From the NCBI RefSeq assembly GCF_000353285.1, contig NZ_KB731324.1, positions 2,994,577 through 3,058,576 of the forward strand: a stretch of 64,000 bases of DNA, written 5' to 3'. The stretch comes from Leptolyngbya boryana PCC 6306 (GTDB lineage: Bacteria > Cyanobacteriota > Cyanobacteriia > Leptolyngbyales > Leptolyngbyaceae). Position 1 is the stretch's first letter. Each line of letters begins with the position of its first letter. The position numbers were made by a program, and so were the translations under genes. Of the stretch, positions 405-41,293 are shown piece by piece. The notes under the pieces are model-generated. The model did not search any database. It was given only the letters and a program-made list of their open reading frames with translations, and was not told the origin of the DNA.

Positions 405-995
405 ATGACTCAGGCGAAACTGCGATTCTCTAGCTTTGAGGAATATTTTGCAGCGGGCGATGATCTCGAACTCGAAGGACGCTACGAATTGATCGATGGA
501 GAACTCGTCCAAGTGCCACCCGAATCAGAAGAGAATAACTTCTTCGCTTTGAATTTGCGAGATTTATTCGCTGCGCTCCTCCCTCGTCGATGGGTTCGCA
601 TTCATCAGTGTGAGATTCAAGTCCCTGTTTTAGAAAAAAAGGATGCTGCAAATCGGTATCCGGATGTTGTCATTTTGCGCCCAGAACATATCGCGCTTAC
701 GAAAACTCGGTTAACGATAAAAGCAGATATGCCACCTCCACAGTTAGTCGCAGAAGTGATCAGTCCGGGAAGTCAAAACCGCGATCGAGATTTCAACAGA
801 AAACGCGCCCAGTATGCTGAGCGCGGAATTCCTGAATATTGGATTCTTGATCCTCAAACTCGTTCGATTACGGTTCTAGAATTGCGCGATCGCGACTACG
901 TTACGTTCGGCATTTTTGCAAATCATGAACTCATTTTCTCTCCCACTTTTCCCAATCTCGACTTTACTGCTGCTCAAGTTTTTAGCGAGGAGTAG
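405..995 (+). CDS. Uma2 family putative restriction endonuclease-like protein (DUF820)
   Basis: A 196-residue protein with the Uma2/DUF820 pattern, a PD-(D/E)XK nuclease-like fold abundant in cyanobacteria. Visible motifs are YPDVVIL (85-91), VAEVIS with the putative catalytic Glu (115-120) and KRAQYAERGIPEYWILDP (133-150). The length is normal for the family. Cellular targets of these proteins are unknown; many copies per genome are typical. The ATG at 405 directly precedes the conserved start. Its 3' end overlaps the convergent transporter gene by 14 bp, so the two stop codons lie within each other's coding region. Confidence 0.85.
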   Translation: MTQAKLRFSSFEEYFAAGDDLELEGRYELIDGELVQVPPESEENNFFALNLRDLFAALLPRRWVRIHQCEIQVPVLEKKDAANRYPDVVILRPEHIALTKTRLTIKADMPPPQLVAEVISPGSQNRDRDFNRKRAQYAERGIPEYWILDPQTRSITVLELRDRDYVTFGIFANHELIFSPTFPNLDFTAAQVFSEE

Positions 996-8160: not shown

Positions 8161-9690
8161 GTGAGAGATATGAACCTTAACAGCATTGCATCAGGAACCG
8201 CAACTATTAATTTGACGACTGTTCAGACCAATCAGACTTTGACACGAGAACTTCAGCAACGCCTGATTGCATTAGGTTTTCAACCGGGTCCTGTCGATGG
8301 AATTTGGGGCAGTCGTACGCAGGCGGCTTATGCTGCTTTCGCGACTCGCAACCAGTTCCCAACCACTGCAATCAGCCCGCGTGCGGCTCAAGTCTTACTC
8401 GGCATCAATACCCTAAATAACATTGCATCAGGGACAGTGACGATCGCACTATCGACGATTCAAAATGTACAAACAATCGTCAGAGAGCTTCAACAGCGCT
8501 TGACAAATTTAGGCTTTCAACCTGGACCCATTGATGGAATCTGGGGCAGTCGTACTCAAGCAGCTTATGCTGCTTTTGCAACCCGTGCTCAGCTTAGAGC
8601 GACCGAAGTGACTCCTCGTGCTGCCCAGTTGCTACTAGGACGTCAATCTCTTCCAACTCCGACCCCCACGCCTGCTCCGACCCCCACGCCTGCTCCGACC
8701 CCCACGCCTGCTCCGACCCCAACTCCGACTCCGACCTCAGTTCAACAACCGACCCCAACCCCGACTCCGACCCCAACCCCTGCTCCGACCCCGACTCCAA
8801 CTCCAACTCCTAGTTCGTCTCCTCGCTTTGCTCCAGCAACTCAAGCTTTACCGACTGGACTACGTCCCATTGCTAATGATGTTTGGATTTGGCAATTGAA
8901 TCGAATCAGCACAGATGCTCGCTTGGTTCGTCAGATGCAACAAGGATTAGATGCAATGGGGCACCAGCCTGGATCGATCGATGGACTCTGGGGAGGCAGA
9001 ACGCAAACGGCTTATGCCGGGTTTACTAGAGTTTATGGCTTTCAAGCCGATGAGCTTTCACCGCAAGCAGCTTTGATGTTGTTGGAGCCTGCGATTCCTC
9101 AGATTGGGGTTGTCCGTCCAGTGCGATCGCTACAATCGAAAGATTTTCAAGATGTTGCCAGATCGATTGGCTGTGAGGTTGCAGCCGTGAGAGCGGTTGT
9201 CGAAGTTGAAGCCGCAGGGTCTGGATTCTTGCGGGATGGTAGACCGAAGATTCTATTTGAGGCGCATTGGTTCTCAGAATTTACCAATGGGCGCTTTGAT
9301 AATAGCAATGGTGATATTTCTAGCCCAGTTTGGAACCGTAGTCTCTATATTGGGGGTGCAGGTGAATGGGATCGATTGTATAAAGCAGTGAATTTGAATC
9401 GGAATGCGGCTTTGATGTCTGCTTCTTGGGGACTGGGGCAAATCATGGGATTCAATCATAGTGCAGCGGGCTATCGGGATGCTGAATCGTTTGTGCGAGA
9501 TATGCATGAGAGTGAAGGAAAGCAGCTTGCGGCAATGTTCAATTTCATCAAGAGCAATCGTCTCGATCGCTTTTTGATTAACCGCGATTGGGCAGGATTT
9601 GCGCTTCGCTACAATGGCGAGAGCTATCGTGTGAATCGCTACGATGAAAAGCTTGCCGATGCGTACAGTCGTTGGTCAAATGTTGCTTAG
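8161..9690 (+). CDS. Modular peptidoglycan hydrolase: three peptidoglycan-binding repeats plus N-acetylmuramidase domain
   Basis: 509 residues from a GTG at 8161; an in-frame ATG at 8170 is an equally possible start. Two tandem peptidoglycan-binding modules (about 27-82 and 107-160) share LGFQPGP[VI][10 protein letters not shown] Thr-Pro/Ala-Pro linker follows (165-220), then a third module (253-308, [11 protein letters not shown]). The C-terminal domain (about 327-507) matches the DUF3380 N-acetylmuramidase family: [10 protein letters not shown] with the likely catalytic Glu (347-356), ILFEAHWF (364-371) and [12 protein letters not shown] (421-432). No signal peptide is visible, so export would need another route or phage-like release. 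Predicted substrate is the glycan strand of peptidoglycan. Confidence 0.85.
8655..8817. repeat. Tandem repeat encoding a Thr-Pro-rich linker
   Basis: At least three near-identical 18-bp units (CCGACCCCCACGCCTGCT) followed by diverged CCAACTCCGA-type units, all in frame and encoding TPTPAP. Unit lengths are multiples of 6 bp, so copy-number change would lengthen or shorten the linker without shifting frame. Confidence 0.85.
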
Positions 9691-29290: not shown

Positions 29291-29307
29291 ACTCAGAAAC
29301 AATAGAC

Positions 29308-29390
29308 GGAGAGTAGAGGAATCGAACCCCCAGGTATTACCCAGTCCTCGTTTTCAAGACGAGTTGCTTGACCATTTAGCGATACTCTCC
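29308..29390 (-). tRNA. tRNA-Ser (anticodon TGA)
   Basis: Seven-pair acceptor GGAGAGT / ACTCTCC. Anticodon loop CTTGAAA gives TGA. It is 83 nt with an extra variable-arm hairpin, so properly class II. It is the last gene of the array in transcription order. Confidence 0.92.
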
Positions 29391-29397
29391 ATTTGGG

Positions 29398-29470
29398 GTG
29401 ACTGACGAGACTCAAACTCGCTAACACTAGTTTCACAGACTAGCTCCTCGATCACTTCGGATTCAGTCAC
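29398..29470 (-). tRNA. tRNA-His (anticodon GTG)
   Basis: Acceptor GTGACTG / CAGTCAC; loop CTGTGAA gives GTG. The D arm pairs poorly (only TCC / GGA) and position 8 seems to be A instead of the usual T, so it may be partly degenerate. Confidence 0.75.
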
Positions 29471-29473
29471 AGT

Positions 29474-29546
29474 GGATTCGGCGGGATTTGAACCCGCAAC
29501 CTATCGTGTGCAAGACGATCGCTTTCCCAGTTAGAGCTACGAACCC
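29474..29546 (-). tRNA. tRNA-Ala (anticodon TGC)
   Basis: Acceptor GGGTTCG / CGAATCC; D arm AGCTC / GAG-type; loop CTTGCAC gives TGC. The T arm GCGGG-TTCAAAT-CCCGC is perfect. The canonical G3-U70 alanine identity pair is present (G3 opposite T70). Confidence 0.9.
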
Positions 29547-29551
29547 AAGGC

Positions 29552-29623
29552 AGGAGTGATAGGACTCGAACCTACAACATCCAGGGTCGAAACCTGGTAC
29601 TCTTCCAATTGAGCTACACTCCT
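29552..29623 (-). tRNA. tRNA-Arg (anticodon TCG)
   Basis: Acceptor AGGAGTG / CACTCCT; anticodon stem CCAGG / CCTGG with loop TTTCGAC gives TCG. T loop TTCGAGT. All stems pair. Confidence 0.88.
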
Positions 29624-29633
29624 ATGTTTTGGC

Positions 29634-29704
29634 GAGAGTGGTAGGACTTGAACCTACACAGATCGGTTTAGAAGACCGATGCCCTTCCATTAGACGACAC
29701 TCTC
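29634..29704 (-). tRNA. tRNA-Arg (anticodon TCT)
   Basis: Acceptor GAGAGTG / CACTCTC; stem TCGGT / ACCGA with loop CTTCTAA gives TCT. All stems pair. Confidence 0.88.
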
Positions 29705-29733
29705 AGATAGTTCTTAGATAGTAAAAAATTGGT

Positions 29734-29803
29734 ATGGACAGCGAGACTCGAACTCGCACCCAGAGTTTGGAAGACTCTCATGCTACCGTTACACCATATC
29801 CAC
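29734..29803 (-). tRNA. tRNA-Gly (anticodon TCC)
   Basis: Acceptor GTGGATA pairs fully, with wobbles, to TGTCCAT. Loop CTTCCAA gives TCC. A73 and CCA are encoded (29730-29733). The body is very similar to the Trp-anticodon gene at 31922-31991. Confidence 0.85.
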
Positions 29804-29810
29804 AAATGGG

Positions 29811-29883
29811 GCTGATGACAGGAATCGAACCTGCAACTAGCTACTTACAAGGTAGCTGCTCTGCCAAATTGAGCTACATCAGC
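29811..29883 (-). tRNA. tRNA-Thr (anticodon TGT)
   Basis: Acceptor GCTGATG / CATCAGC; stem GCTAC / GTAGC with loop CTTGTAA gives TGT. All arms pair well. Confidence 0.92.
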
Positions 29884-29956
29884 AAGAACTTGAAATACTG
29901 TGTAAAACTTTCTAGACAGTTTTTCTAACGCATTTAAGAACGCTTATAGTATTTTC

Positions 29957-30628
29957 ATGGCTATTAATCCTCCTCCAAAAACATGCCTACACTGCGGGCA
30001 ACTCTTTCATAGGCGCGAAAATGAGCGTCTTTCTGACTTCAAAAAGAAGAAGTTTTGCGATCGCTCTTGCTCTGCGTCGTACAACGGTAGGATGTTTCCC
30101 AGAAAAATTACAATTTCACCAACAGGGGGTATTCTTCCCTGTCAACGATGTTCTGCACCTATTCAGCTTAAGCGAGCAGCAAGAGGTGGGTACTACAAGA
30201 GAAAGTACTGCGATTCATGTTTGAAACGTTCTCTATCCGAACATGGCACAACAGTTATTGCCAAGAATACTAAAGAGTACCAGGCTAAGAGAATCAATGT
30301 TCTATCTTTAACAAAAGCAGAATTGTTTAGTAGAAGAAAGAACTGGCAATCAGCTAGAACTAGCATTAGAAATCATGCCTCAAGAATCTATCTTGCTAGT
30401 GGTGGTCGAAAACAATGTGCTATTTGCGGGTATAGCTTGCATATAGAAATCTGCCATAGAAAGCCTGTTAGTCAATTTTCAGATCATGCTCTTATCTCCG
30501 AAATTAATGCTTTTTCAAATTTGATTGCTCTTTGTCCAAATCATCATTGGGAGCTAGATAATGGATTACTCTTGTTGAAAGAGTTGGACGCGGGGCTGGG
30601 AGTTGCACCCAGTGATCGCAGCGTATGA
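29957..30628 (+). CDS. Zinc-finger / HNH endonuclease-like protein inside the tRNA array
   Basis: 223 residues, antisense to the surrounding tRNA genes. Two CxxC pairs near the N-terminus (Cys10/13 with Cys34/38; Cys62/65 with Cys85/88) look like zinc ribbons. The C-terminal part has CAICG (154-158), ICHRKP (165-170) and ALCPNHHWELDNG (191-203), an HNH-type metal and catalytic site with Cys193, His196 and His197. This fits a free-standing homing-type or mobility-related nuclease, though no target is shown. Its last 40 bp overlap the tRNA-Met gene at 30589-30660. It is more AT-rich than its neighbours, suggesting transfer. Confidence 0.75.
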   Translation: MAINPPPKTCLHCGQLFHRRENERLSDFKKKKFCDRSCSASYNGRMFPRKITISPTGGILPCQRCSAPIQLKRAARGGYYKRKYCDSCLKRSLSEHGTTVIAKNTKEYQAKRINVLSLTKAELFSRRKNWQSARTSIRNHASRIYLASGGRKQCAICGYSLHIEICHRKPVSQFSDHALISEINAFSNLIALCPNHHWELDNGLLLLKELDAGLGVAPSDRSV

Positions 30629-30660
30629 GACTGCCGAGCCACTCCTGCTCTACCCCCGCT
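30589..30660 (-). tRNA. tRNA-Met (anticodon CAT), initiator-like acceptor
   Basis: Position 1 (A) and position 72 (G) do not pair, and positions 2-7 GCGGGG pair with CCCCGC. An unpaired 1:72 is an initiator trait, but the three G-C pairs expected in the initiator anticodon stem are absent (GCAGT / GCTGC). Loop CTCATAC gives CAT. It overlaps the 3' end of the antisense HNH-like gene. Confidence 0.8.
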
Positions 30661-30662
30661 AT

Positions 30663-30736
30663 ACCCCCGACTGGACTCGAACCAGCAAGACGCTTATTTT
30701 AAGTAAGCGATGTCTTCCCAATTGCATCACAGGGGC
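30663..30736 (-). tRNA. tRNA with leucine anticodon TAA, short variable arm
   Basis: Stem GCTTA / TAAGC with loop CTTAAAA gives TAA. Acceptor GCCCCTG / CGGGGGT, A73. The length is 74 nt with a variable region of about 5 nt, whereas leucine tRNAs are normally class II. There is no group I intron, unlike the usual cyanobacterial tRNA-Leu(UAA) gene. The D arm is atypical (GATG / CATC). Confidence 0.78.
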
Positions 30737-30748
30737 AGATGGTCTAGT

Positions 30749-30819
30749 GGGCGCTACAGGAATCGAACCTGTCTGAGTCTGATTAAAAGCCAGATGCATC
30801 ACCGCTCTGCCAAACGCCC
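30749..30819 (-). tRNA. tRNA-Lys (anticodon TTT)
   Basis: Acceptor GGGCGTT / AGCGCCC; stem TCTGG / TCAGA with loop CTTTTAA gives TTT. Confidence 0.9.
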
Positions 30820-30823
30820 TGGT

Positions 30824-30897
30824 ACACCGAGCAGGACTCGAACCTGCTAGTAACACGCTCATCAGGCGTGCGCGTAGACCACTTCCGCCTTCGGTGC
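30824..30897 (-). tRNA. tRNA-Ile (anticodon GAT)
   Basis: Acceptor GCACCGA / TCGGTGT; stem CACGC / GCGTG with loop CTGATGA gives GAT. Position 37 is G where isoleucine tRNAs normally have A (modified to t6A). Confidence 0.85.
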
Positions 30898-30904
30898 ATT
30901 TGGT

Positions 30905-30977
30905 ACTCTCGACAGGATTTGAACCTGCATCAACTCCGTCCCTCAAACGGAGGCGTTTACCGTTTCGCCACGAGAGC
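30905..30977 (-). tRNA. tRNA with leucine anticodon GAG, short variable arm
   Basis: Acceptor GCTCTCG / CGAGAGT, then A73 and encoded CCA. D stem GGCG / CGCC; stem TCCGT / ACGGA with loop TTGAGGG gives GAG. It is 73 nt with a 6-nt variable region, so class I rather than class II. Confidence 0.8.
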
Positions 30978-30982
30978 ACAGT

Positions 30983-31054
30983 ACCCCTGGTGGGAGTCGA
31001 ACCCACAAAACCTGGTTTCTAAGACCAGTGCATATTCCGTTCTGCTACAAGGGT
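30983..31054 (-). tRNA. tRNA with leucine anticodon TAG, short variable arm
   Basis: Acceptor ACCCTTG / CAGGGGT, A73. Stem CTGGT / ACCAG with loop CTTAGAA gives TAG. It is 72 nt without a long variable arm. Confidence 0.8.
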
Positions 31055-31058
31055 GAAT

Positions 31059-31135
31059 TGGTCGGGATAGTAAGATTTGAACTTACAACCTTCGACTCCC
31101 AAAGTCGCTGCGCTACCAAATTGCGCCATACCCCG
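31059..31135 (-). tRNA. tRNA-Pro (anticodon TGG)
   Basis: Acceptor CGGGGTA / TATCCCG, A73 and CCA encoded. Loop TTTGGGA gives TGG, with stem CGAC / GTCG. D arm GGCGC / GCGC-type, like ordinary bacterial proline tRNAs. Confidence 0.9.
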
Positions 31136-31143
31136 ATCGTGTT

Positions 31144-31221
31144 TGGTACTCCTGATGAGATTTGAACTCATACATGAACTATTTTTGAGATAGTTGCCTC
31201 TACCAGTTGGGCTACAGGAGC
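31144..31221 (-). tRNA. tRNA with leucine anticodon CAA, short variable arm
   Basis: Acceptor GCTCCTG / CAGGAGT, A73 and CCA encoded. Stem ACTAT / ATAGT with loop CTCAAAA gives CAA. It is about 75 nt without CCA, variable region 6 nt, so class I. Confidence 0.8.
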
Positions 31222-31272
31222 AAAAGACAGGAGGATAGAAGTGCTGACCCAAAAGCATTTCATGCCCCCCGA

Positions 31273-31347
31273 CTGGGAAGGAAGGAATCGAACCTTCAAC
31301 CATCTGTTTCAAAGACAGATCGCTTTACCTAATTTGCGTACTTCCCA
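31273..31347 (-). tRNA. tRNA-Gln (anticodon TTG)
   Basis: Acceptor TGGGAAG / CTTCCCA with the weak U1-A72 pair typical of glutamine tRNAs, and G73. Stem TCTGT / ACAGA with loop CTTTGAA gives TTG. Confidence 0.9.
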
Positions 31348-31387
31348 CTATCGATTTGGATGATCTGAATGATTTGAATAGTGTGGA

Positions 31388-31460
31388 TGCCGAGGTTGGA
31401 TTTGAACCAACATCTCCATGATTCAGAGTCATAGCAACTTTCCAAGTCGTCCACTCGGCA
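31388..31460 (-). tRNA. tRNA-Gln (anticodon CTG)
   Basis: Acceptor TGCCGAG / CTCGGCA with U1-A72. Stem TATGA / TCATG with loop CTCTGAA gives CTG. Confidence 0.87.
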
Positions 31461-31469
31461 TTGATTGGC

Positions 31470-31541
31470 TGCCCTAGTAGGATTTGAACCTACAACCCTC
31501 CGATTAACAATCGAATGCTCTGCCAGTTGAGCTATAGGGCA
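31470..31541 (-). tRNA. tRNA-Asn (anticodon GTT)
   Basis: Acceptor TGCCCTA / TAGGGCA; D arm GCTC / GAGC; stem TTCGA / TCGGA with loop TTGTTAA gives GTT. T arm GTAGG / CCTAC. Confidence 0.92.
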
Positions 31542-31563
31542 ATGTTCCTGAAGATTTCAGGAT

Positions 31564-31635
31564 GGGAATGGCAGGGATCGAACCCGCGTCCTCAGAGCTT
31601 CAACCTGATGCTAAAACCAACTCAGCTACATTCCC
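31564..31635 (-). tRNA. tRNA-Phe (anticodon GAA)
   Basis: Acceptor GGGAATG / CATTCCC; stem TCAGG / TCTGA with loop TTGAAGC gives GAA. T arm GCGGG-TTCGATC-CCTGC. Confidence 0.9.
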
Positions 31636-31648
31636 TTAAAAGTTTGTT

Positions 31649-31734
31649 TGGCGGAGAGAGTGGGAGTCGAACCCACAGAGGGAATTTCCTCGATCGTTTA
31701 GCAAACGACTTGCCTTGCCAATGGCGACCTCTCC
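31649..31734 (-). tRNA. tRNA-Ser (anticodon GCT)
   Basis: Acceptor GGAGAGG / TCTCTCC, G73 and CCA encoded. Stem GTCGT / ACGAT with loop TTGCTAA gives GCT. A long variable hairpin is present, as expected for serine. Confidence 0.93.
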
Positions 31735-31741
31735 ATTTGGT

Positions 31742-31822
31742 GGGTCGAGTTGGATTTGAACCAACGATGCTTGCGCAACCGTTTTACAGACGGCTTCCTT
31801 GATCAGACTTGGATATCGACCC
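31742..31822 (-). tRNA. tRNA-Tyr (anticodon GTA)
   Basis: Acceptor GGGTCGA / TCGACCC; stem GCCGT / ACGGT with loop CTGTAAA gives GTA. The variable arm (TGCGCAAGCA) is long, as is normal for bacterial tyrosine tRNA. Confidence 0.92.
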
Positions 31823-31830
31823 AGATTTGG

Positions 31831-31904
31831 CAGTGCTGACGGGAGTTGAACCCGCAAACGCAACTTTGAAAGAGTTGTGGCTTTACCAATTTGCCTACAG
31901 CACC
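31831..31904 (-). tRNA. tRNA-Glu (anticodon TTC)
   Basis: Acceptor GGTGCTG / CAGCACT, G73. Stem CAACT / AGTTG with loop CTTTCAA gives TTC. Confidence 0.88.
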
Positions 31905-31917
31905 ATGAAATTCGATT

Positions 31918-31991
31918 TGGCGAAGGGACTGAGACTCGAACTCAGATCGTCGGTTTTGGAGACCGAAATGTTACCGTTACACCATCCCAAC
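31918..31991 (-). tRNA. tRNA with tryptophan anticodon CCA on a Gly-like body
   Basis: D stem GTGT / ACAT, stem TCGGT / ACCGA, loop CTCCAAA gives CCA. G73 and CCA are encoded. The acceptor GTTGGGA / TCCCTTC has two U-U mismatches at 2:71 and 3:70. Its D arm (GGTGTAACGGTA) is the same as in the Gly gene at 29734-29803. Confidence 0.78.
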
Positions 31992-31996
31992 GTGTT

Positions 31997-32069
31997 TGGT
32001 CGCAGTGCGGGGAGTTGAACCCCGAATGTCTTGGATATGAATCAAGATCCTGACCGTCAGGACACTGCA
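31997..32069 (-). tRNA. tRNA-Met (anticodon CAT), second copy
   Basis: Acceptor TGCAGTG / CACTGCG, A73 and CCA encoded. The D arm is a small palindrome (TCCTGA-CGG-TCAGGA). The anticodon stem has an A-C mismatch next to loop TTCATAT, giving CAT. It could be elongator Met or, if C34 is modified to lysidine, Ile. Confidence 0.78.
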
Positions 32070-32082
32070 AAACTTTAGAATT

Positions 32083-32157
32083 TGGAGTCCGGGAGGGGAA
32101 TCGAACCCCTGTTGAGCAGATTTGCAGTTTGCCGCCTTCCCACTTGGCTACCCGGAC
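32083..32157 (-). tRNA. tRNA-Cys (anticodon GCA)
   Basis: Acceptor GTCCGGG / CCCGGAC with U73, the cysteine discriminator, and CCA encoded. Loop CTGCAAA gives GCA; the anticodon stem has one A-C mismatch. Confidence 0.9.
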
Positions 32158-32563: not shown

Positions 32564-33082
32564 CTACAACTTTTTTTCAGATGCCTTCCAGAACTGTTCA
32601 GCAAAGGCAATTGCGGGATGAATCGGGGCTTTCGGCTTGGTTTTAAGCTTCATTCCGAGTTCAGATAAAAAGCGATCGCCTTTTTTAGAATTACAGCCTG
32701 CACAAGCCGTCACAACGTTATCCCAGGTATGAGTTCCACCTCTGGAACGGGGAATCACGTGGTCGATCGTCAACTGCTTCTGAGTTCCGCAATACTGGCA
32801 GGTGTGGCAGTCTCGGCGGAGAACTTCTCGGCGACTGACTGCTGGCACTTTCCAATGCCGTTCTGGATTCGATCCCGTTAAACGGATGTGCTCAGAAACA
32901 TGTAGTACAACATTGGGAGAACGAACTTCCCATTGCCGAGCATCTTCAAAATCGAGGGCTTCGGCCTGTCCAGAAATAATCAGAACAATTGCACGTTTGA
33001 TGTTGATGCGCGCGATCGGTAAATAGTTTTTAGAAAAAACCACGATCGACGCTTGTAATATATGTGGTTCAGTTGCCTGCAT
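32564..33082 (-). CDS. HNH endonuclease
   Basis: 172 residues from the ATG at 33082 (MQATEPHILQAS), chosen because AGGAG lies 10 nt upstream; the frame runs 50 codons further but through a terminator-like hairpin. The N-terminal half carries VVLHVSEHIRL. The HNH core has CQYCG, TIDHVIPRSRGGTHTWDNVV and CAGCNSKKGDR, with both CxxC zinc pairs, the catalytic His in DHV and the Asn in WDNV. Stand-alone HNH proteins of this type are widespread in cyanobacteria and of unknown target. It is transcribed toward the tRNA array. Confidence 0.88.
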   Translation of the reverse strand: MQATEPHILQASIVVFSKNYLPIARINIKRAIVLIISGQAEALDFEDARQWEVRSPNVVLHVSEHIRLTGSNPERHWKVPAVSRREVLRRDCHTCQYCGTQKQLTIDHVIPRSRGGTHTWDNVVTACAGCNSKKGDRFLSELGMKLKTKPKAPIHPAIAFAEQFWKASEKKL

Positions 33083-33097
33083 GACGGTTTCACTCCT

Positions 33098-33134
33098 AAA
33101 AAAGAACCCCGCTCCTGATGTGCCAGAAGCGGGG
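33098..33134 (-). terminator. Intrinsic terminator-like hairpin in the HNH leader (possible attenuator)
   Basis: On the minus strand CCCCGCT (33134-33128) pairs with AGCGGGG (33113-33107), followed by TTCTTTTTT. The U-run ends one base before the ribosome-binding site AGGAG and 16 bp before the start codon. No promoter can fit in between, so HNH transcripts must read through it. Confidence 0.7.
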
Positions 33135-33308
33135 AAAGGGTGGTGAGTAAATGCCCTTACGCTGGAGATAGAATCTCCCGATTTCGCCCGCTTTTTGCAC
33201 CATGATTTTTCAGCCAGTTTTCCGACATGCACGCACTTTCTACACCCGGAACTGGGGCAGATGTGCAGTCACATAAATGGGAAAAGCCGTAAATCATTGC
33301 GATGTAGT

Positions 33309-33412: not shown

Positions 33413-34735
33413 TCAGAAACTCTCTCGATTCAAATTCGACAACCCATGTTGACGACGTAACTCATGCAAGGTGAGATAGTCTGCACCATAAAACGCTTGC
33501 TTTTGCCGTTCGTCCATCTCATTGCAGCCATAAAGATAAGGACGACCTCCTAGAGCACAACATTGTTGTAGTGCCATTTGTAAAACTGGAAGCGTCTTGG
33601 TCAGCAGCATCGGGTTCCAGCGGCTCACCATTGTGTAAAGCCCCACGCTAAAGAGTAATGTTCCTTTCGGTGCTGGAAGAAAAGCAAAATTCGTATGGTC
33701 TGCTGGGCGACGAATCATGAGAATGTAAATTGCTTTGAGTGCTTCAGATAGAGGCTGTTCTCTCATCAAAGGTTCCAGAAATTCCATGAAGCGAACTACG
33801 TTAGCATAGTCAAAGATATAATCTGTCCAAATCTGAAAATGATCTGGGAATGCGGAAAGCCAGACATCTCTGCGCGCTTGTAGCTGAAAGGGAAAATCTT
33901 GCTCACTCTTGACTTGATCTGAATCTTGATACAAAGCAGGGGCAATACAAGAGTCACTAAATTGCTCTTGCTGGCTCATATAACCATACTCAGAAGCAAT
34001 CTCATTCAAAGAGATATAGCCATTGAAATGCTGAATTCCACTGTTCGGGGCAGCTAGCTCTGGTAAAAACTCCAGCATTTCAGAAACGTTATCATGCTGT
34101 CGCTTAACAGTATGTGTAAATTTTGAGAAGGGCTGAGTCTGCATTACGACTTTGTCAATAATGCCAACTTGTCCTAATCCTGCCAAAGCAAAGCGGAACA
34201 GCGTTTCATTCTCGTGCGGAGAACACCAAAGAACCTGTCCATTCGGCTGAATCAAACGCAGGCGACGAACTTGATCGACTTGGAAACCATGCGCGATCGA
34301 ATTCAGCCCCATTCCACCTACTGAAAGCGTTCCACCCACTGACAAATCCAGATAATCAGTCAGAACGGCTGATTGTCTGCCTGCCTGGTTCAAACATTCC
34401 TCAACCGCACGCCAACAGCTTCGCCCCGAAACTTCAACCAAGCCATCTTCTAAGAACTCAACTTCAGCCGATCGACTAAAGTTTTCAAGAAGAATGCCTC
34501 CAGAATTGAGACTCTGCCCATTACATGAATGACCAGCCCCTCGAACTGTTAGCGAAGTTCCAGTCGTCTGAGCCACTTCTAACGCATGAAGAATATCTTT
34601 CTCCTGATGCGCTGTTACTAAAATGCCAGGTTGCTTGCGTCGCAACCCTCCGAAATCAGTTTGATACTGTGCAGGCACAATATCTGTAACTTCGCCCTGT
34701 ATGCCTTGCCGAAGTGAATCTAGAATGTCAGACAT
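33413..34735 (-). CDS. FAD-linked oxidase, cytokinin-dehydrogenase-like
   Basis: 440 residues of the PCMH/BBE-type FAD oxidase superfamily. VRGAGHSCNGQS (64-75) contains His69, the expected covalent FAD attachment site. LTDYLDLSVGGTLSVGGMG and the following FQVDQVRRLRLIQPNG resemble the cytokinin dehydrogenase FAD domain, and the C-terminal half fits its substrate cap. No signal peptide is present. Plant homologues cleave isoprenoid-bearing cytokinins, so an isoprenoid or alkaloid-type substrate is plausible. It is the last gene of a five-gene operon, starting 2 bp after the GMC gene. Confidence 0.8.
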   Translation of the reverse strand: MSDILDSLRQGIQGEVTDIVPAQYQTDFGGLRRKQPGILVTAHQEKDILHALEVAQTTGTSLTVRGAGHSCNGQSLNSGGILLENFSRSAEVEFLEDGLVEVSGRSCWRAVEECLNQAGRQSAVLTDYLDLSVGGTLSVGGMGLNSIAHGFQVDQVRRLRLIQPNGQVLWCSPHENETLFRFALAGLGQVGIIDKVVMQTQPFSKFTHTVKRQHDNVSEMLEFLPELAAPNSGIQHFNGYISLNEIASEYGYMSQQEQFSDSCIAPALYQDSDQVKSEQDFPFQLQARRDVWLSAFPDHFQIWTDYIFDYANVVRFMEFLEPLMREQPLSEALKAIYILMIRRPADHTNFAFLPAPKGTLLFSVGLYTMVSRWNPMLLTKTLPVLQMALQQCCALGGRPYLYGCNEMDERQKQAFYGADYLTLHELRRQHGLSNLNRESF

Positions 34736-34737
34736 AA

Positions 34738-36252
34738 TTACTTATCCAGAATCATTTGAGCTGCTTTCTCACCAATCATGATGCAGCTTGCGTTAGTATT
34801 CCCACTCACAATCACAGGCATAATCGAGGCATCGGCAACTCTCAGTCCTTCAACCCCATGGACTCGGAGCTTTGAGTCCACTACTGCCATTTCATCTTGT
34901 CCCATTTTGCAGGTTCCAACAGGATGCCAAATCGTCGTTGCCTGAGTGCGAATGAGACTGTTCAAGTCATCGACATCTGCTGTAAATTCGCCGCCATTGA
35001 ACTCCATTAAGCTTGAAGTATGAGTCAGTTCACGAGCGAGCTGAATCCCTTGTCGTAAGACTTTCAAATCACGATCGCAACTCAAATAATTTGGATCAAT
35101 CCTTGCTGAATCCAACGGATTGGCAGAGCGCAAATTGATCTGACCTCGACTTTCAGGTTTGACTAACGTTGGCGCACAAAAAAACACAGAATCTTCGATC
35201 GATAATTCTTGAGGAATCAATCCACGCATATTTCCTGTGAAGTGAAATTGTAAATCTGGTGCTTCATGCTGATCATCTGTATTGACAAATAATCCAGCTT
35301 CTCCTAGAAAAGTAGGAATCTCAAGATTTTGTTTAGCTCGATACATCAAAACCATCATCAGATGATCGTGTAAGTTCTGTCCGACTCCTGGCAAATTGAC
35401 TTGAACTGAAACGTCGTGCGCTTTAAGCTGAGCGGTAGAACCAATTCCAGAAAGCATTAAAAGTTTGGGTGAGTCGATCGCTCCTGCACAAAGGATGACT
35501 TCTTGATTGCAGTAAACTCGCTGAATTTCACCTGCTTGAATATATTCCACACCAATGGCACGATTGCCTTTTAGCAAAATACGAGTGACTTGGACTTGTG
35601 TCTGAATCGTTAGATTCGAGCGGTGGAGAACCGGATTGAGAAATGCGATCGCGGCGTTACATCTTCGCCCATCTGGAGTTACATTCACTTGATAAATGCC
35701 CGCTCCATTTTCTTGCTGCTCCCCATTAAAATCCCAATCTACGCCATAGCCAAGTTCTCTGCCTGCTTGCACAAAAGCTCTTGAAACGGCAGTAGGTTCA
35801 GGACAATGCCGAACACTCAGCTCGCTTCCCATCCCATGAAAATTAGAGACATCTCCAGCATAATTCTCTGACTTCTTGAAGATGGGAAGTACTTCATCGT
35901 AGCTCCATCCCTCATTCCCTAAGTTCTTCCAGCCATCAAAATCATGACGGCTGCCTCGAACGTAGATCATCGCGTTAATACTACTGCATCCCCCTAAAAC
36001 TTTGCCTCGTGACATGAAGATGCGGCGGTTACAGAGTCCAGGCTGTTCCTCAGTGAAGTAAGACCAATCGTGTTGAGATCCCCAAAGACTAAATAATTCC
36101 GACGGTTGATCAATATTAGAATGCTTTGCTGAACCTCCTGCTTCTAAGACTAAAACAGTAGTGTCAGAATCAGCACTGAGACGATTCGCAATTACACATC
36201 CAGCGGAACCCGCACCGATCACGACATAGTCAAACGACTGCTGCTGTAGCAT
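34738..36252 (-). CDS. GMC family (glucose-methanol-choline) oxidoreductase
   Basis: 504 residues. Dinucleotide-binding YVVIGAGSAGCVIANRL (9-25), signature 1 KVLGGCSSINAMIYVRG (84-100), signature 2 GAIDSPKLLMLSGIG, and the C-terminal active-site HPVGTCKMG and GNTNASCIMIGEKAA. FAD-dependent members oxidise primary or secondary alcohols to aldehydes or ketones (choline, alkanols, terpene alcohols). Length and motifs are complete. In this operon it would be expected to oxidise an alcohol made by the upstream synthase; this is inference. The gap to the next upstream gene is 21 bp. Confidence 0.92.
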   Translation of the reverse strand: MLQQQSFDYVVIGAGSAGCVIANRLSADSDTTVLVLEAGGSAKHSNIDQPSELFSLWGSQHDWSYFTEEQPGLCNRRIFMSRGKVLGGCSSINAMIYVRGSRHDFDGWKNLGNEGWSYDEVLPIFKKSENYAGDVSNFHGMGSELSVRHCPEPTAVSRAFVQAGRELGYGVDWDFNGEQQENGAGIYQVNVTPDGRRCNAAIAFLNPVLHRSNLTIQTQVQVTRILLKGNRAIGVEYIQAGEIQRVYCNQEVILCAGAIDSPKLLMLSGIGSTAQLKAHDVSVQVNLPGVGQNLHDHLMMVLMYRAKQNLEIPTFLGEAGLFVNTDDQHEAPDLQFHFTGNMRGLIPQELSIEDSVFFCAPTLVKPESRGQINLRSANPLDSARIDPNYLSCDRDLKVLRQGIQLARELTHTSSLMEFNGGEFTADVDDLNSLIRTQATTIWHPVGTCKMGQDEMAVVDSKLRVHGVEGLRVADASIMPVIVSGNTNASCIMIGEKAAQMILDK

Positions 36253-36273
36253 CCCGCCTACTCCAAGGTTCTT

Positions 36274-37056
36274 TTAGATTCCAGCGAAGTTCCCAACTGG
36301 AGGCGATGAAAAGTCAGTGCCATCATTGATGATTTTGATTGCAGATGCCATGCGCTCCATCTGCGATCGCAACTCTGGATAGTCTTGCATTGTATTCACG
36401 AATCGCCCTGCCTTGTCTTGAAACTCAATGCCATTAAAGAAATTCATGACAAGATAGTTGCCTTCATACCAAATAAAACCATAAGACGTGAGATGAAGTT
36501 CTTGATAACTATCGAGATGCGAATCCCAAGCATCGCTCGGAGCAATGAATAACTCTGGAATACCCGACTGAGGCATGTTATCCCCCAAACCACTATGCAT
36601 TTTGTAAGTGACTTGAAATGACCATCTATCTGTTTCAATCTGTTCTAGTTCTTCAATTTGGGTCGGAATTGAAACAGGAGATGGATCTCCCATGCGGCGA
36701 AGCCAACCTAAGTTATCTCGATTGCCGAGTTCAGCAAAAATCTCTGGCGGTAATCTCTGTCCATCAACAGATGGAATCACATAGACCCCAAAAAAGGCAT
36801 GAAAATAAGGACTCGTTGCATCAAAATGAGCAGAGTAAGAACAACCAGGGGTAGGTGCAGGAAACAGCAAATAGCTTGTCCCCTTGAGATCTTGAATGGC
36901 ATCCCCACATTGAATGTGTTGCCAGTGAGGTTGCATGGCAAGGCAGAAAATCTTAGGCAACCAACCTGCTTCAACGCGAAAGACAGGGCGCGGATTCCAT
37001 CCTCTCAAGTTAAAAATTGTTTGGACGGTAGGAGCGGATTGTAGTTGTTTCAGCAT
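36274..37056 (-). CDS. Protein of unknown function in the isoprenoid-synthase operon
   Basis: 260 residues; no family recognised. It is rich in Trp, Tyr and Phe, with segments such as GWNPRPVFRVEAGW (19-32), YLLFPAPTPGCSYSAHFD, YFHAFFGVYVIPS and LTSYGFIWYEGNYLVMNFFNG. No signal peptide, membrane helix or nucleotide-binding motif is apparent. The aromatic, beta-prone pattern could fit a ligand-binding or oxygenase-like fold, but no metal site is obvious. Its start overlaps the stop of the 68-residue gene (TAATG), so translation is coupled. Confidence 0.75.
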   Translation of the reverse strand: MLKQLQSAPTVQTIFNLRGWNPRPVFRVEAGWLPKIFCLAMQPHWQHIQCGDAIQDLKGTSYLLFPAPTPGCSYSAHFDATSPYFHAFFGVYVIPSVDGQRLPPEIFAELGNRDNLGWLRRMGDPSPVSIPTQIEELEQIETDRWSFQVTYKMHSGLGDNMPQSGIPELFIAPSDAWDSHLDSYQELHLTSYGFIWYEGNYLVMNFFNGIEFQDKAGRFVNTMQDYPELRSQMERMASAIKIINDGTDFSSPPVGNFAGI

Positions 37057-37262
37057 TAATAGTTGACCTGTTCGTTTGCCTCTAATAATGCATTCTGGTT
37101 TTGATAAAGCATCTCAATATCAAAGGATTCCAGATGGTAACCTTTGCTGACAAACCACGATTGCATCTGCTCAGCTTCGGGAAAAGGCAGAACAAGATTG
37201 AGTTCTTGAAGCAAATCGGTTTGAGTCGTGATATCTAGAATAAAATCGGTGTACGTTTTCAT
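37056..37262 (-). CDS. Small protein (68 aa), Nif11-like in appearance
   Basis: 68 residues from the ATG at 37262 (MKTYTDFILDITTQTDLLQ); a longer frame to 37313 overlaps the synthase and has no ribosome site. The pattern (short helix, DLLQELN, then SWFVSKGYHLESFDIEML) recalls Nif11-type leader domains, in which a helix precedes a G-Y/F-x-h-x-x-x-E/D-h segment. There is no Cys/Ser/Thr-rich core or GG cleavage site, so it need not be a RiPP precursor; a small partner or carrier is equally possible. It lies 20 bp after the synthase gene and overlaps the next start. Confidence 0.7.
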   Translation of the reverse strand: MKTYTDFILDITTQTDLLQELNLVLPFPEAEQMQSWFVSKGYHLESFDIEMLYQNQNALLEANEQVNY

Positions 37263-37282
37263 GAGAGTACTTCCTATTGAAG

Positions 37283-38287
37283 TCAAATTGTAGATAATTC
37301 TTCCAAGGGGCAAGCGAGTTGCCGCAACTCAGAAGCATAGGTTTTGAGGGAAATTGATTCTGCTGCCTGTTGGGCTTCCCTTAACCAGAGAAGAATGTAA
37401 GAAACGAGAGTAGAAAGCAATTTCGTTTCTTCGAGATGCTGTTGCAGAATTCTCCATTCAGGAGACTGATGATTTTTCCCTCCGCACCCCAACCAGACGA
37501 GTTGGTATTCTGGAGACAGTAGGTGATACACAGCTGAGAGTTCCCCTGCAAAGGCATCGCTGCTACAGTCGCGCAAATCATCTAACAGTCGCCATGCAAT
37601 ACAAAATGCCTCGTAAGCAGTTTGAACCGCGATCGCATCACTTCCTGTACGATGTGCAGTCAACATCGGTGAAATTAAGGTCGTACTCAACTGCTTACGG
37701 AACAATTCGCAGTAAGCATCCAACCCAACTACTGGAGTCGGGCAATGCACCCCACTAAAGTATCGAGCTAACAGAGAGTTAACAATCGTTTCGCCTTCAG
37801 GTAAACATTGAGCAAGAGATAAGGTCTCTTGATTAAACTTCATCCATGCCTGTGTTCTCAGTTGCAGGAGGAGATGACTTGGTGCAAGCTGCCCATCTGA
37901 AATGTGATCGTCCAGCATATGTAGGAAATATGCCATTGCCTGTGCGCTCAAGGCAGCTTTTAGCTCATCTTGTTGCAGAGTAGGCTGATTTTGCTGCATC
38001 CAATAGATGATCGACCAACTTGGAGTATAGAATTTCGTAAAGAAGTTCACCAAGTTTGAGAGTTGAAACCCTGTGTAGTGTCTTTGAATTGTGAGAAGAG
38101 CAGATCCGCGCAATGGCTCTGGTAGGGCGCGACATAGCTCAATCATTTGGCGATTCATGAAGGAGAGCATTGAAGTTTGCTCTGGATTGAGTGACACCTG
38201 ACCAAAATTGACGGATTCAAATTCTGGGACAGTTAAGAGCTTTGCTGAATGATCGGATGAGATTCGAGAGAGCGCTAGAGCATGCAT
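37283..38287 (-). CDS. Class I isoprenoid synthase-like protein
   Basis: 334 residues, all-helical pattern. An Asp-rich motif MLDDHISDG lies near residues 123-131 and a second, LLDDLRDCSSD, near 242-252. They are spaced as in trans-prenyltransferases, squalene/phytoene synthases and class I terpene cyclases, where they bind Mg2+-diphosphate. The rest does not match polyprenyl diphosphate synthase (no FARM, no chain-length region) or canonical phytoene synthase. An uncommon branch of the superfamily is therefore likely, substrate unknown. It is the first gene of the operon, behind a candidate promoter at 38345-38374. Confidence 0.72.
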   Translation of the reverse strand: MHALALSRISSDHSAKLLTVPEFESVNFGQVSLNPEQTSMLSFMNRQMIELCRALPEPLRGSALLTIQRHYTGFQLSNLVNFFTKFYTPSWSIIYWMQQNQPTLQQDELKAALSAQAMAYFLHMLDDHISDGQLAPSHLLLQLRTQAWMKFNQETLSLAQCLPEGETIVNSLLARYFSGVHCPTPVVGLDAYCELFRKQLSTTLISPMLTAHRTGSDAIAVQTAYEAFCIAWRLLDDLRDCSSDAFAGELSAVYHLLSPEYQLVWLGCGGKNHQSPEWRILQQHLEETKLLSTLVSYILLWLREAQQAAESISLKTYASELRQLACPLEELSTI

Positions 38288-38773
38288 GATTTAACTGAAA
38301 ATCGAGTAGGTCATGGTTTCTGCACCTTGATGAAATTGGGTTGAGTAATAGCGAGAAGGTAGTACTCAAGTCAATTGTGATTTCATCTTGAGCTTTTAGC
38401 CTATCAATTTATTTCTTCTATTTAATTCAGTATTAACACTAAATTTTCAGCCTGGAAAAATTGGAATTTAGGCTTTTTATAAATGTGAAGCTCTTATACA
38501 TCAAGATTCAATGAAGATTTTATATATTAATTGATTTGCTTAGAATTGAGCTTTAACTCAATACGAATCCGCTATTTTAAACAGAGCAAAATCTTTAGAA
38601 TTCGTGAAATATGTTGCTTTGTCTAAGTTAATTTTTAATAAAATAGAGTGAAAAAATGGTGAATCCTGCTATCAATTTTCTGAAGATTGGATTAATTATA
38701 TCTTTACGAAAAAAGTTGACTCAAACTATTATCTTTTGGGCACATTAAAGTTGAATTATGCTCTGTTCTCCTT
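38288..38773. other. AT-rich divergent intergenic region (486 bp)
   Basis: No gene. Clearly more AT-rich than the flanking genes, especially 38440-38720. It must hold promoters for the leftward operon (see 38345-38374) and the rightward TpsA gene, and its size and composition suggest added regulation or horizontally acquired DNA. Confidence 0.55.
38345..38374 (-). promoter_or_regulatory. Candidate promoter of the isoprenoid-synthase operon
   Basis: On the minus strand TTGACT (38369-38374), 18 bp, TATTAC (38345-38350). Transcription would start about 50 nt before the ATG at 38287. Confidence 0.5.
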
Positions 38774-41293
38774 ATGCGCCCTTTACTTTGTTCCCTTGGT
38801 TTAACTAGTATTGCGCTGCTTGGATTAAGCTTTGCACGTCCAGCATCTGCTCAGCTTCGAGTGGTTGAAGATGGTACGTTATCGACAAAAGTCACCTCTC
38901 CAGATGGATTAAACTTCACGATCGATTTTGGCGATCGTATGGGTAATAATCTATTCCATAGCTTCCGAGAGTTCTCGATTCCAGCATTCGGGTCGGCAAG
39001 ATTCAATCATGCCTCAGAGATTCAGAACATCTTCAGTCGGGTTACAGGTGGCACTGCATCTAGTATTAATGGCGTGATTGAAGCTCAAGGCACTGCTAAT
39101 TTGTTTCTGCTCAATCCAGCGGGGATTCTCTTTGGTGCGAATGCACAGTTGAATATTGGCGGCTCTTTTGTTGGGACAACAGCTTCTAGTATTCGGTTCG
39201 CAGATGGTGCAGAATTTAGAGCAACAGATCTTAATGCGCGTCCTTTACTAACCGTCAGTGCCCCGATTGGCGTGCAGTTTGGGCAGCCTGCTGGAGCAAT
39301 CCAAGTTCAAGGTATTGGACATCCATTAACGGGTAGAACACGTCCAGATGTGAGAAATCCTCTTGTAGGTGCAGGAACGAGCACAACAGGATTGAGCGTA
39401 AAGTCTGGAAAGACGTTGGCTCTGATTGGCTCTGGCGTAACACTTGATGGCGGAATTCTCAGTGCACCTGAGGGGCATTTGGCGTTGGGCAGTGTAAGTT
39501 CAGGCTATGTGAGTCTTCTGCCCAATGCACAGGGCTGGCAGCTAGGCTATGAACAAGTCCAGGGTAAGCAAAACATTCAACTGTCTCAGAAGGCTCTACT
39601 CGATGCGAGTGGTTTAGGAAATGGATCTATCCAGCTTGATGGTGCTCAGATCTCGCTAAGTGGAGGGTCTGTTGCGCTGATTCAGAATCAAGGAACGGTA
39701 TCTTCTGGTCAAATTCAAATTCGCGCTTCTGAAAAGCTTTATCTGAGCGGCACGACACCAGATGGCACGATTCAGACTGGGCTGCACATGCAACAAGTCA
39801 ATACGGGAAATGGAAATGAGATTAATATTGTTGCGCCACAGGTTGAAGTACTAGCGGGGGCAGGAATTAGCAGCAAAACCTTTGGCAGTGCTCATACAGG
39901 AAATATCAGAATTGATGCTGATCAAGCCGTCCGAGTACAGGATTTTTCAGCGATCGATTCTTCTAATTTCTCTTCGATTACTAACTACACTTATAGTCGA
40001 AGCAGCAGTGCAGGAAATACAGGCAATATCAGTATTTCAACTCGCGAGTTGAGCAGTGTAAATGGAGGATCAATTGGGCTTGGGACTTTGGGCGCTGGCT
40101 CAACCGGAAACCTAGATATTAAAGCAACTGAGTCTGTAGAATTGGGAGGAGAAGAGCCAAGATTCCGGCAGTTTAGCACTCTGTTTGATGTCTCTTTTGG
40201 AACAGGAAATGCAGGCAACCTCACGCTTGATACAAAGCGATTGTTGATTCGGGACGGGGGACGGCTTGGTGCTTCGACGGTTGCTTTTGGTAATGCTGGA
40301 AATATTACTGTCAATGCAAGTGAGTCTGTAACTGTGAAAGGAATTGCGCCTGTTGCCAGAATTCCTAGCCAAATTAGTTCTGCTGGCAATATTCTGCCAG
40401 AGAGCGTACGTCTACTCTACAATACTCCACGTCTGCCAAGTGGGAATGCAGGCAGCGTCACGATCAATACGAATCGCTTGCAGGTAGCCAATGGCGCACT
40501 GGTCACAGTGAGAAATCTTGGCTCTGGAAATGCTGGAAGCTTGAATGTCAATGCAAATTCAATTTATCTAGATCAAAGAGGAAGTCTTGCTGCTTCGACG
40601 ACGGTTAGCAATGGTGGAAATATGAGTCTTCAAGTTCAGGAGTCGATCATCATGCGTCGTGGAAGTGGAATTACGGCTGAGGCGAGGGGAGGAGGCAATG
40701 GAGGCAATCTTACTGTCAATGCGCCGATTTTACTAGGGTTAGAAAACAGTGATATTGTTGCTAGGGCTGAGCGAGGCAATGGCGGTAATATTCAAATCAC
40801 GACTCAAGGCATTTTTGGCTTAAAGTTTCGATCGCAGCAGACCCCTGAAAATGACATTACTGCGAGTTCGGATTTTGGTGTGAATGGCAGTGTCGCCATT
40901 AAGAGTCCTGATGTAGATATCAATGCAGGATTGTTGCAATTACCTGTTGAGTTCCTCGACGCAGGACAGCAAGTTGCAAAAGGATGTTCAGCGCTCGAAG
41001 GCAGCCGTTTTGTCGTCACAGGGCGAGGTGGAATTCCAGAAGATCCGACTCATGCTGTGGCTCACAATTTGGTCTGGTCTGATTTGCGAGATCTTGCTGA
41101 TTTAAAATTGTCAAACGGTCGTGCATCTCGCTCAACAGTGTCTTCGGGCAGTGAAATGCATGAAATGATGGTAGAGGCAACCGAATGGCGACGCAATGCG
41201 GCGGGTCAGGTTGAATTAATTGCGAAACACGCCCCTGTATCATCAATTTCCGCACTGAATTGCGCTGGAGAAAACATTAATTCAGCACCTTAG
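38774..41293 (+). CDS. Filamentous haemagglutinin-type exoprotein (two-partner secretion, TpsA)
   Basis: 839 residues. A Sec signal peptide is clear: hydrophobic LLCSLGLTSIALLGLSFA then PASAQ, cleavage near residue 26. The TPS domain (about 27-250) has FTIDFGDRMGNNLFHSFREF, SRVTGGTASSINGVIEAQG and NLFLLNPAGILFGANAQL, the NPNGI-type motif recognised by TpsB. A long run of beta-helix repeats (GNAGN[IL]-type) follows to about 740, and then a conserved cyanobacterial C-terminal region. It would be exported and bind surfaces or the cell envelope. No TpsB transporter gene is in the window. Confidence 0.92.
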   Translation: MRPLLCSLGLTSIALLGLSFARPASAQLRVVEDGTLSTKVTSPDGLNFTIDFGDRMGNNLFHSFREFSIPAFGSARFNHASEIQNIFSRVTGGTASSINGVIEAQGTANLFLLNPAGILFGANAQLNIGGSFVGTTASSIRFADGAEFRATDLNARPLLTVSAPIGVQFGQPAGAIQVQGIGHPLTGRTRPDVRNPLVGAGTSTTGLSVKSGKTLALIGSGVTLDGGILSAPEGHLALGSVSSGYVSLLPNAQGWQLGYEQVQGKQNIQLSQKALLDASGLGNGSIQLDGAQISLSGGSVALIQNQGTVSSGQIQIRASEKLYLSGTTPDGTIQTGLHMQQVNTGNGNEINIVAPQVEVLAGAGISSKTFGSAHTGNIRIDADQAVRVQDFSAIDSSNFSSITNYTYSRSSSAGNTGNISISTRELSSVNGGSIGLGTLGAGSTGNLDIKATESVELGGEEPRFRQFSTLFDVSFGTGNAGNLTLDTKRLLIRDGGRLGASTVAFGNAGNITVNASESVTVKGIAPVARIPSQISSAGNILPESVRLLYNTPRLPSGNAGSVTINTNRLQVANGALVTVRNLGSGNAGSLNVNANSIYLDQRGSLAASTTVSNGGNMSLQVQESIIMRRGSGITAEARGGGNGGNLTVNAPILLGLENSDIVARAERGNGGNIQITTQGIFGLKFRSQQTPENDITASSDFGVNGSVAIKSPDVDINAGLLQLPVEFLDAGQQVAKGCSALEGSRFVVTGRGGIPEDPTHAVAHNLVWSDLRDLADLKLSNGRASRSTVSSGSEMHEMMVEATEWRRNAAGQVELIAKHAPVSSISALNCAGENINSAP

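Follow-up and report, generated by a model that had tools for sequence, protein, structure and literature searches.

Introduction

Among the described systems closest to the locus considered here, comQ sits directly before comX (PMC5331326), and ComQ has lost the second Asp motif (PMC5331326, PMC10853753). PalQ lies far from the named subfamilies and was once classed among the terpene synthases; its substrate is PalX, a precursor of the NHLP type for which an 8-residue core has been proposed, and it prenylates the conserved Trp at the C-terminus of PalX (PMC10853753). MppC, described as a beta-barrel enzyme, carries out a lanthipeptide prenylation directed by a Nif11-type leader (PMC12715784). 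Nif11-derived precursors have themselves been described, in a paper whose main text contains none of the terms GMC, FAD and terpen- (PMC2887384). Here we analyse a five-gene operon on the minus strand at 33413-38287 of a 64,000-nucleotide stretch (the window) of Leptolyngbya boryana PCC 6306, in which a gene for a synthase-like protein is followed by genes for a 68-amino-acid (aa) protein, a 260-aa orphan and two flavin oxidases. Our leading reading, held tentatively, is that of a dedicated and rare operon that would make an oxidised isoprenoid small molecule, namely a free terpenoid.

No published description of this five-gene set stood among the literature matches listed, as judged by title and the start of the abstract. 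The only paper found with both Nif11 and "GMC oxidoreductase" (PMC7105596) has Nif11 once, in a protein table.

A rare five-gene unit conserved in two genera

In transcription order, the genes encode P0001 (synthase-like, 334 aa, 37283..38287), P0002 (68 aa, 37056..37262), P0003 (260 aa, 36274..37056), P0004 (GMC flavin oxidoreductase, 504 aa, 34738..36252) and P0005 (FAD oxidase, 440 aa, 33413..34735), all on the minus strand and spaced by a 20 base-pair (bp) gap, a 1-base overlap, a 21 bp gap and a 2 bp gap. These are the genes of the initial annotation, and the spacings agree exactly.

The initial annotation had also proposed looking for the same five genes in other neighbourhoods, and a second genus has them. 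P0003 was scanned against genome contigs of 84,980 species, in a search that detects close relatives only and from which the source genome's records were possibly excluded; among 49 pattern matches there was one true relative, in the metagenome-assembled genome of Alkalinema sp. RU_4_3 (JAAUSA010000033.1). All five genes are present in this genome in identical order, so the set is more than a chance assembly. The Alkalinema proteins are 48% (synthase), 57% (68-aa protein), 51% (260-aa protein) and 61% (FAD oxidase) identical to those of L. boryana; the GMC protein is 57-58% identical, its gene being broken into two open reading frames (ORFs) by a frame change. Furthermore, the gap between the synthase gene and the 68-aa gene measures 20 bp in both genomes. 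The outer flanks are not shared between the two operons; apart from antisense shadows, the remaining window-ORF matches on the 32,493-base Alkalinema contig come from two places in the window (405-995 and 8170-9690), both at a distance of over 23 kb from its operon.

The operon is thus a conserved five-gene unit seen in two genera, and it is rare. P0001 and P0003 were each found in a single one of the 386 cyanobacterial genomes sampled, namely their own; P0001 was found in 2 of 42 genomes of the family and, at E <= 0.001, in none of the 7 other genomes of the genus. A two-row synthase profile gave matches in 2 of 388 genomes of the class, own included. Of four genomes reached by a synthase profile at E <= 0.05, two were set aside because they had short fragments only (E 0.013, with an internal stop, and 0.036). 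The corresponding two-row P0003 profile reached 4 of 388 genomes at E <= 0.05, of which two were dropped as weak, short fragments (E 0.024 and 0.027). Among viral contigs, the synthase and P0003 profiles gave 317 and 70 pattern matches, respectively, none confirmed as relatives, and a plasmid search with P0003, P0001 and P0002 returned no match. The 260-aa protein, called novel in the initial annotation, stays an orphan: searches of Pfam, NCBIfam and PHROGs gave nothing for it, and PDB sequences gave chance matches only.

A divergent synthase-like protein

P0001 carries two Asp motifs, DDHISD (D126, D127, D131) and DDLRDCSSD (D236, D237, D240, D244). The DxxxD patterns within them, D127xxxD131 and then D240xxxD244, stand in the correct order and are invariant between P0001 and its Alkalinema ortholog, P0006, as are the stretches HMLDDH..DGQ and EAFCIAWRLLDDLRDC..DA.AGELS. 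For P0006, a single Pfam match was reported at E <= 10 among 24,736 families, a uniqueness to be read in the light of HMMER filters that discard most weak matches. This match is to SQS_PSY (E = 0.035, residues 185-310); it covers the second Asp motif and scores 14.2 bits, below the curated cut-off of 26 bits. A local profile was built from squalene/phytoene synthase relatives from the searched genomes (12 of 13 with matches), the decoys being 200 shuffled sequences, a pair of reversed copies and the ORFs of the window; P0006 scored 6.1 bits against it, above all decoys (best shuffle 2.6). In MAFFT alignments with phytoene synthases, the second Asp motif was co-aligned in all three settings.

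A series of results on P0001 itself weighs against its identity as an isoprenoid synthase, and with it against a terpenoid product. P0001 has no match in Pfam (E <= 1), NCBIfam or PHROGs (E <= 1), matches PDB sequences at chance level only, and is not among the matches of PF00348 and PF00494 searches of its own genome. Its score against the local profile, -0.7 bits, lies inside the shuffle noise. Comparison by hhalign with three squalene/phytoene-type profiles, which have many members in common, gave E values of 0.054, 0.018 and 0.040 at probabilities of 1.0-2.6%; across these three and a fourth profile, of polyprenyl synthases, the query outscored all 10 shuffles in two cases and was surpassed by a shuffle in the remaining two. 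The first Asp motif was co-aligned with that of the phytoene synthases in none of the three MAFFT settings, and the two motifs lie 113 residues apart, a shorter distance than the 133 and 126 residues measured for a pair of phytoene synthases. Polyprenyl synthases (hhalign E 0.093, probability 0.6%) were also considered as the parent family of P0001 and rejected, as shuffled and reversed queries scored better.

Compared with PF00494, P0001 and P0006 have their second catalytic helix in register (LRDxxxDAxxG, to which the ortholog adds YYLLP further on), a first motif that reads DxxxDG and a similar protein length. They differ from the family in scoring below its cut-off, in a region ahead of the first motif that exceeds that of two phytoene synthases by 65-79 residues, in a shorter motif spacing and in an additional Asp in both motifs. 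The class I isoprenoid-synthase-like character that had been proposed for P0001 therefore stands as weakly supported: the two invariant Asp motifs and the sub-threshold SQS_PSY match of the ortholog speak for it, while P0001 itself stays in the noise and local support is weak and mixed. Judged from these sequence features, P0001 is likely a class I isoprenoid enzyme.

The genus also holds a third SQS_PSY paralog (L038, at C1:5411432-5411980 of the L. boryana genome, and L039), which keeps the second Asp motif as RDLRED and has no DxxxD at the usual first-motif position. At C1:2053184-2053563 of the same genome, two adjoining short SQS_PSY matches, one with an internal TAG, look like a gene remnant.

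Two flavoenzymes

The families that had been assigned to the two oxidases are borne out. P0004 has both Pfam GMC domains above cut-off (6.3e-54 and 6.9e-39), and the solved structures nearest to it are those of choline dehydrogenase, alcohol oxidase and choline oxidase, making it a GMC enzyme of the choline-oxidase/dehydrogenase type. A link to mycofactocin was tried and dropped, since P0004 scores 364.9 bits against an MftG cut-off of 387.45 and higher, at 528.4 bits, with a choline dehydrogenase model (own cut-off 605), and since the remaining four proteins of the operon drew no further mycofactocin family.

P0005 matches FAD_binding_4 at 4e-18, and its GHS His and TDYL Asp are in register with cytokinin dehydrogenase 7 (2exr); we take the former to be the covalent-FAD His and the latter the catalytic Asp. 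It thus shares with cytokinin dehydrogenases the FAD half and the GHS and TDYL motifs. It differs from them in a substrate half that is not recognisable: the likeness to the best structure is limited to residues 25-244, the FAD-binding half, and neither P0005 nor its Alkalinema ortholog P0009 has a cytokinin-binding domain among its family matches. On plasmids, relatives of P0005 were matched in 63 records, and the two Nostoc records examined hold no similar cluster; an FAD-binding protein from a Rhodococcus fascians plasmid also matches P0005 (23% identity over 92% of its length).

A small protein with a Nif11-like register

The 68-aa ORF is a genuine gene, because P0002 and its Alkalinema ortholog, P0007, have the same length of 68 aa and because the differences between their genes fall at codon positions 1, 2 and 3 in the pattern 27/16/44 (69 codons, stop included). 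Identity between the two proteins is 22/28 in the first segment, 15/31 in the middle and 2/9 in the tail, and both end in Tyr; the sole Trp of P0002, W36, is conserved and internal.

P0002 may be Nif11-like. Its register fits the Nif11 domain (F..L...L...GY), a likeness shared with the Nif11/N11P families (PF07862, TIGR03798), from which it differs in a 3-residue insertion, a very short tail, the lack of a double-Gly cleavage site (GG), which P0007 lacks too, and the lack of any Pfam or NCBIfam match; neither P0002 nor P0007 matched Pfam at E <= 10 or NCBIfam. A PF07862 search of the L. boryana genome found three other places and not P0002. An uncleaned Nif11 profile, whose 29 rows were gathered automatically and included wrong ones, was matched equally well by 10 of 200 shuffles, and in hmmsearch P0002 ranked 97th and P0007 124th among 909 listed, mostly shuffles. 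Hand-cleaning took out wrong rows, added the Nostoc pair described below and cut the profile back to the domain, leaving 24 rows; the hhalign result was then P = 0.0022 at a probability of 12.8%, with 1 of 400 shuffles equally good. Relatives of true Nif11 proteins can likewise go undetected by Pfam: two Gemmobacter proteins, one 40% identical to Nostoc P0011 and the other aligning with Nostoc P0010, have no match there.

Nif11-type genes do occur beside GMC genes elsewhere. Relatives of P0004 were matched in 1066 plasmid records, with Nif11 neighbours in one of the four examined. EthD, two GMC and two Nif11-type genes stand together on plasmids of Nostoc sp. ATCC 53789 (L092, 6622-11165) and Gemmobacter aquarius (L097, 1-4330), and the GMC proteins of the two plasmids pair off at 54% and 57% identity, against about 39% across pairs, with the small proteins aligning likewise. 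This suggests that some Nif11 proteins act as GMC partners. The likeness to the L. boryana operon lies in the Nif11-type genes beside GMC genes and in the first Nostoc GMC protein, which is 52% identical to P0004; a Nostoc GMC protein without Nif11 neighbours is equally close (53%). The plasmid operons differ in that no synthase or FAD_binding_4 oxidase is annotated nearby, an EthD gene being present instead, and in that their Nif11 proteins are longer than P0002 and have a conserved C-terminal half.

A proposed terpenoid pathway and its alternatives

We infer that a terpenoid pathway would run as follows. P0001, as a divergent relative of squalene/phytoene synthase among the class I isoprenoid synthases, would hold a prenyl diphosphate at the pair of Asp motifs by way of Mg2+, and couple or cyclise this substrate. 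The GMC enzyme would then turn an alcohol of the product into an aldehyde or acid, and the cytokinin-dehydrogenase-like enzyme would oxidise the product at a second C-O or C-N position. The 260-aa protein would carry out a further tailoring step, and the 68-aa Nif11-like protein would assist these enzymes as a small partner, possibly that of the GMC enzyme. We favour a free terpenoid because P0001 keeps both Asp motifs, has squalene/phytoene synthase as its nearest family and is accompanied by two oxidases; because Nif11-type genes neighbour GMC genes without an annotated prenyltransferase in Nostoc and Gemmobacter; and because the five genes are conserved together in two genera. In retaining both motifs, P0001 resembles enzymes with diphosphate handling at each of the two sites and differs from ComQ. 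The terpenoid route that the initial annotation had drawn from a synthase and two flavin oxidases is supported in part: the two oxidase families and the co-occurrence of all five genes hold up, while the identity of the synthase is weak and a prenylated peptide is a close rival. The initial annotation had passed over the Nif11 likeness of the 68-aa protein, by which the isoprenoid may be attached to a peptide instead of being a free terpenoid, and the TPS exoprotein gene (below) in the conserved block.

In that rival, which we consider possible if somewhat doubtful, P0002 would be a ribosomal precursor with a Nif11-like leader, a short variable tail and a Tyr end, prenylated on the terminal Tyr or on Trp36 by P0001 as an enzyme of the ComQ/PalQ kind, and both flavoenzymes would then oxidise the prenylated residue. 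The peptide gene directly follows the synthase gene at the same 20 bp in both genomes, a tight coupling that fits a prenylated peptide better than a free terpenoid and counts against the latter. If P0001 is class I, the locus further resembles ComQ/ComX and PalQ/PalX in having a class I-like enzyme gene that adjoins a short peptide gene, and PalX in a conserved terminal aromatic residue, here Tyr. The remote Nif11 resemblance spans almost the whole domain (with the hand-cleaned profile), and the P0002 tail is variable after a conserved first segment, with the terminal Tyr retained. PalQ/PalX offers a close precedent for prenylation of a terminal residue (PMC10853753), and MppC one for a Nif11-type leader (PMC12715784), although MppC is described as a beta-barrel enzyme and not class I. 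Yet the operon synthase, unlike ComQ, has its second Asp motif intact; P0002 ends in Tyr and not in Trp; the double-Gly site is absent; and the operon has an orphan protein and a pair of flavin oxidases beyond what the ComQ and PalQ systems contain. No peptidase or peptide exporter is recognisable among the five genes and the two adjacent genes checked, nor was a histidine kinase recognised among the five, the two neighbours being HNH and TPS proteins (below). The Nif11 match, moreover, is missing from Pfam, NCBIfam and the own-genome PF07862 search, and with the uncleaned profile it was equalled by 10 of 200 shuffles. In a more specific form, which we regard as unlikely, the operon would represent a new class in which a two-motif squalene/phytoene-synthase-like enzyme attaches a prenyl group to the C-terminal Tyr of a Nif11-like precursor, the GMC and cytokinin-dehydrogenase-like enzymes oxidise the prenyl-tyrosine, and P0003 completes the product.

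The doubts about P0001 also leave room for a pathway with no isoprenoid at all. P0001 could be a helical protein of another kind whose helices happen to be rich in Asp, and the flavin oxidases could then act, together with a Nif11-like partner, in a pathway for a different amine or alcohol; the lack of a family match for P0001, profile comparisons within or near noise, and the GMC and Nif11-type genes that share operons without an annotated synthase are consistent with this. We consider it improbable, as it would leave two invariant Asp motifs aside and as the one Pfam match reported for the ortholog falls in the class I superfamily, in the catalytic register. Breakdown of a cytokinin or similar hormone, with the FAD oxidase cleaving a prenylated amine and the other genes processing the fragments, would agree with the position of P0005 nearest to cytokinin dehydrogenases among solved structures and with its match to the R. 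fascians plasmid protein. We nevertheless rate it as very improbable, given that the likeness stops at the FAD-binding half, that a cytokinin-binding domain is not matched and that synthase and peptide genes are unexpected in a breakdown route.

Operon boundaries and neighbours

That the five genes form one operon is supported; the single candidate promoter that had been placed before them has weak backing. The divergent intergenic region (38288..38773) holds a minus-strand promoter-like site at 38724-38695, the top site of the scan with 10 of 12 matches and well placed upstream of the first operon gene, but the scanned region has 9 such sites against 10.2 +/- 3.1 in shuffles, a count not above chance. 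Beyond the last gene lies a terminator-like hairpin (33107..33134, minus strand) of 12 pairs, 8 of them G-C, with a T-rich tail; it lies within the longest reading of the next ORF, and terminator-like sites again do not exceed chance (4 observed against 5.3 +/- 2.4 in shuffles). G+C across the operon is 0.44-0.47 per kilobase, similar to the surroundings, and 0.37 in the kilobase with the intergenic region.

On the far side of this region, a divergent gene encodes a two-partner-secretion (TPS) exoprotein of 839 aa (38774..41293, plus strand). A divergent TPS exoprotein gene also adjoins the Alkalinema operon and matches that of the window in three main pieces at 39-50% identity. This is shared synteny and not a specific marker of the operon, a role rejected because TPS relatives occur in 35 of 41 family genomes at E <= 1e-30 and the 19 matches in the own genome make up a large paralogous family. 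On the other side, an HNH endonuclease gene (32564-33232) adjoins an array of 23 transfer RNA (tRNA) genes on the minus strand at 29305-32157 of the window, where many small ORFs overlap tRNA genes.

Significance

Two 12-kb stretches of the assembly are 100% identical to plasmids of L. boryana, the only species among the records matched (2 for one stretch and 4 for the other), and L. boryana has been described as a genetic model organism (PMC10581220). If the isoprenoid reading is correct, a cyanobacterium amenable to genetics contains a minimal pathway to which standard profiles are blind, because the synthase, the peptide and the 260-aa protein have no curated family match above threshold. 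Were the new peptide class true instead, it would unite terpene and peptide chemistry within one five-gene operon. The pairing of Nif11 and GMC genes in Nostoc and Gemmobacter, for its part, hints at a role for some Nif11 proteins as partners of enzymes rather than as precursors, which bears on the function of the Nif11 family.

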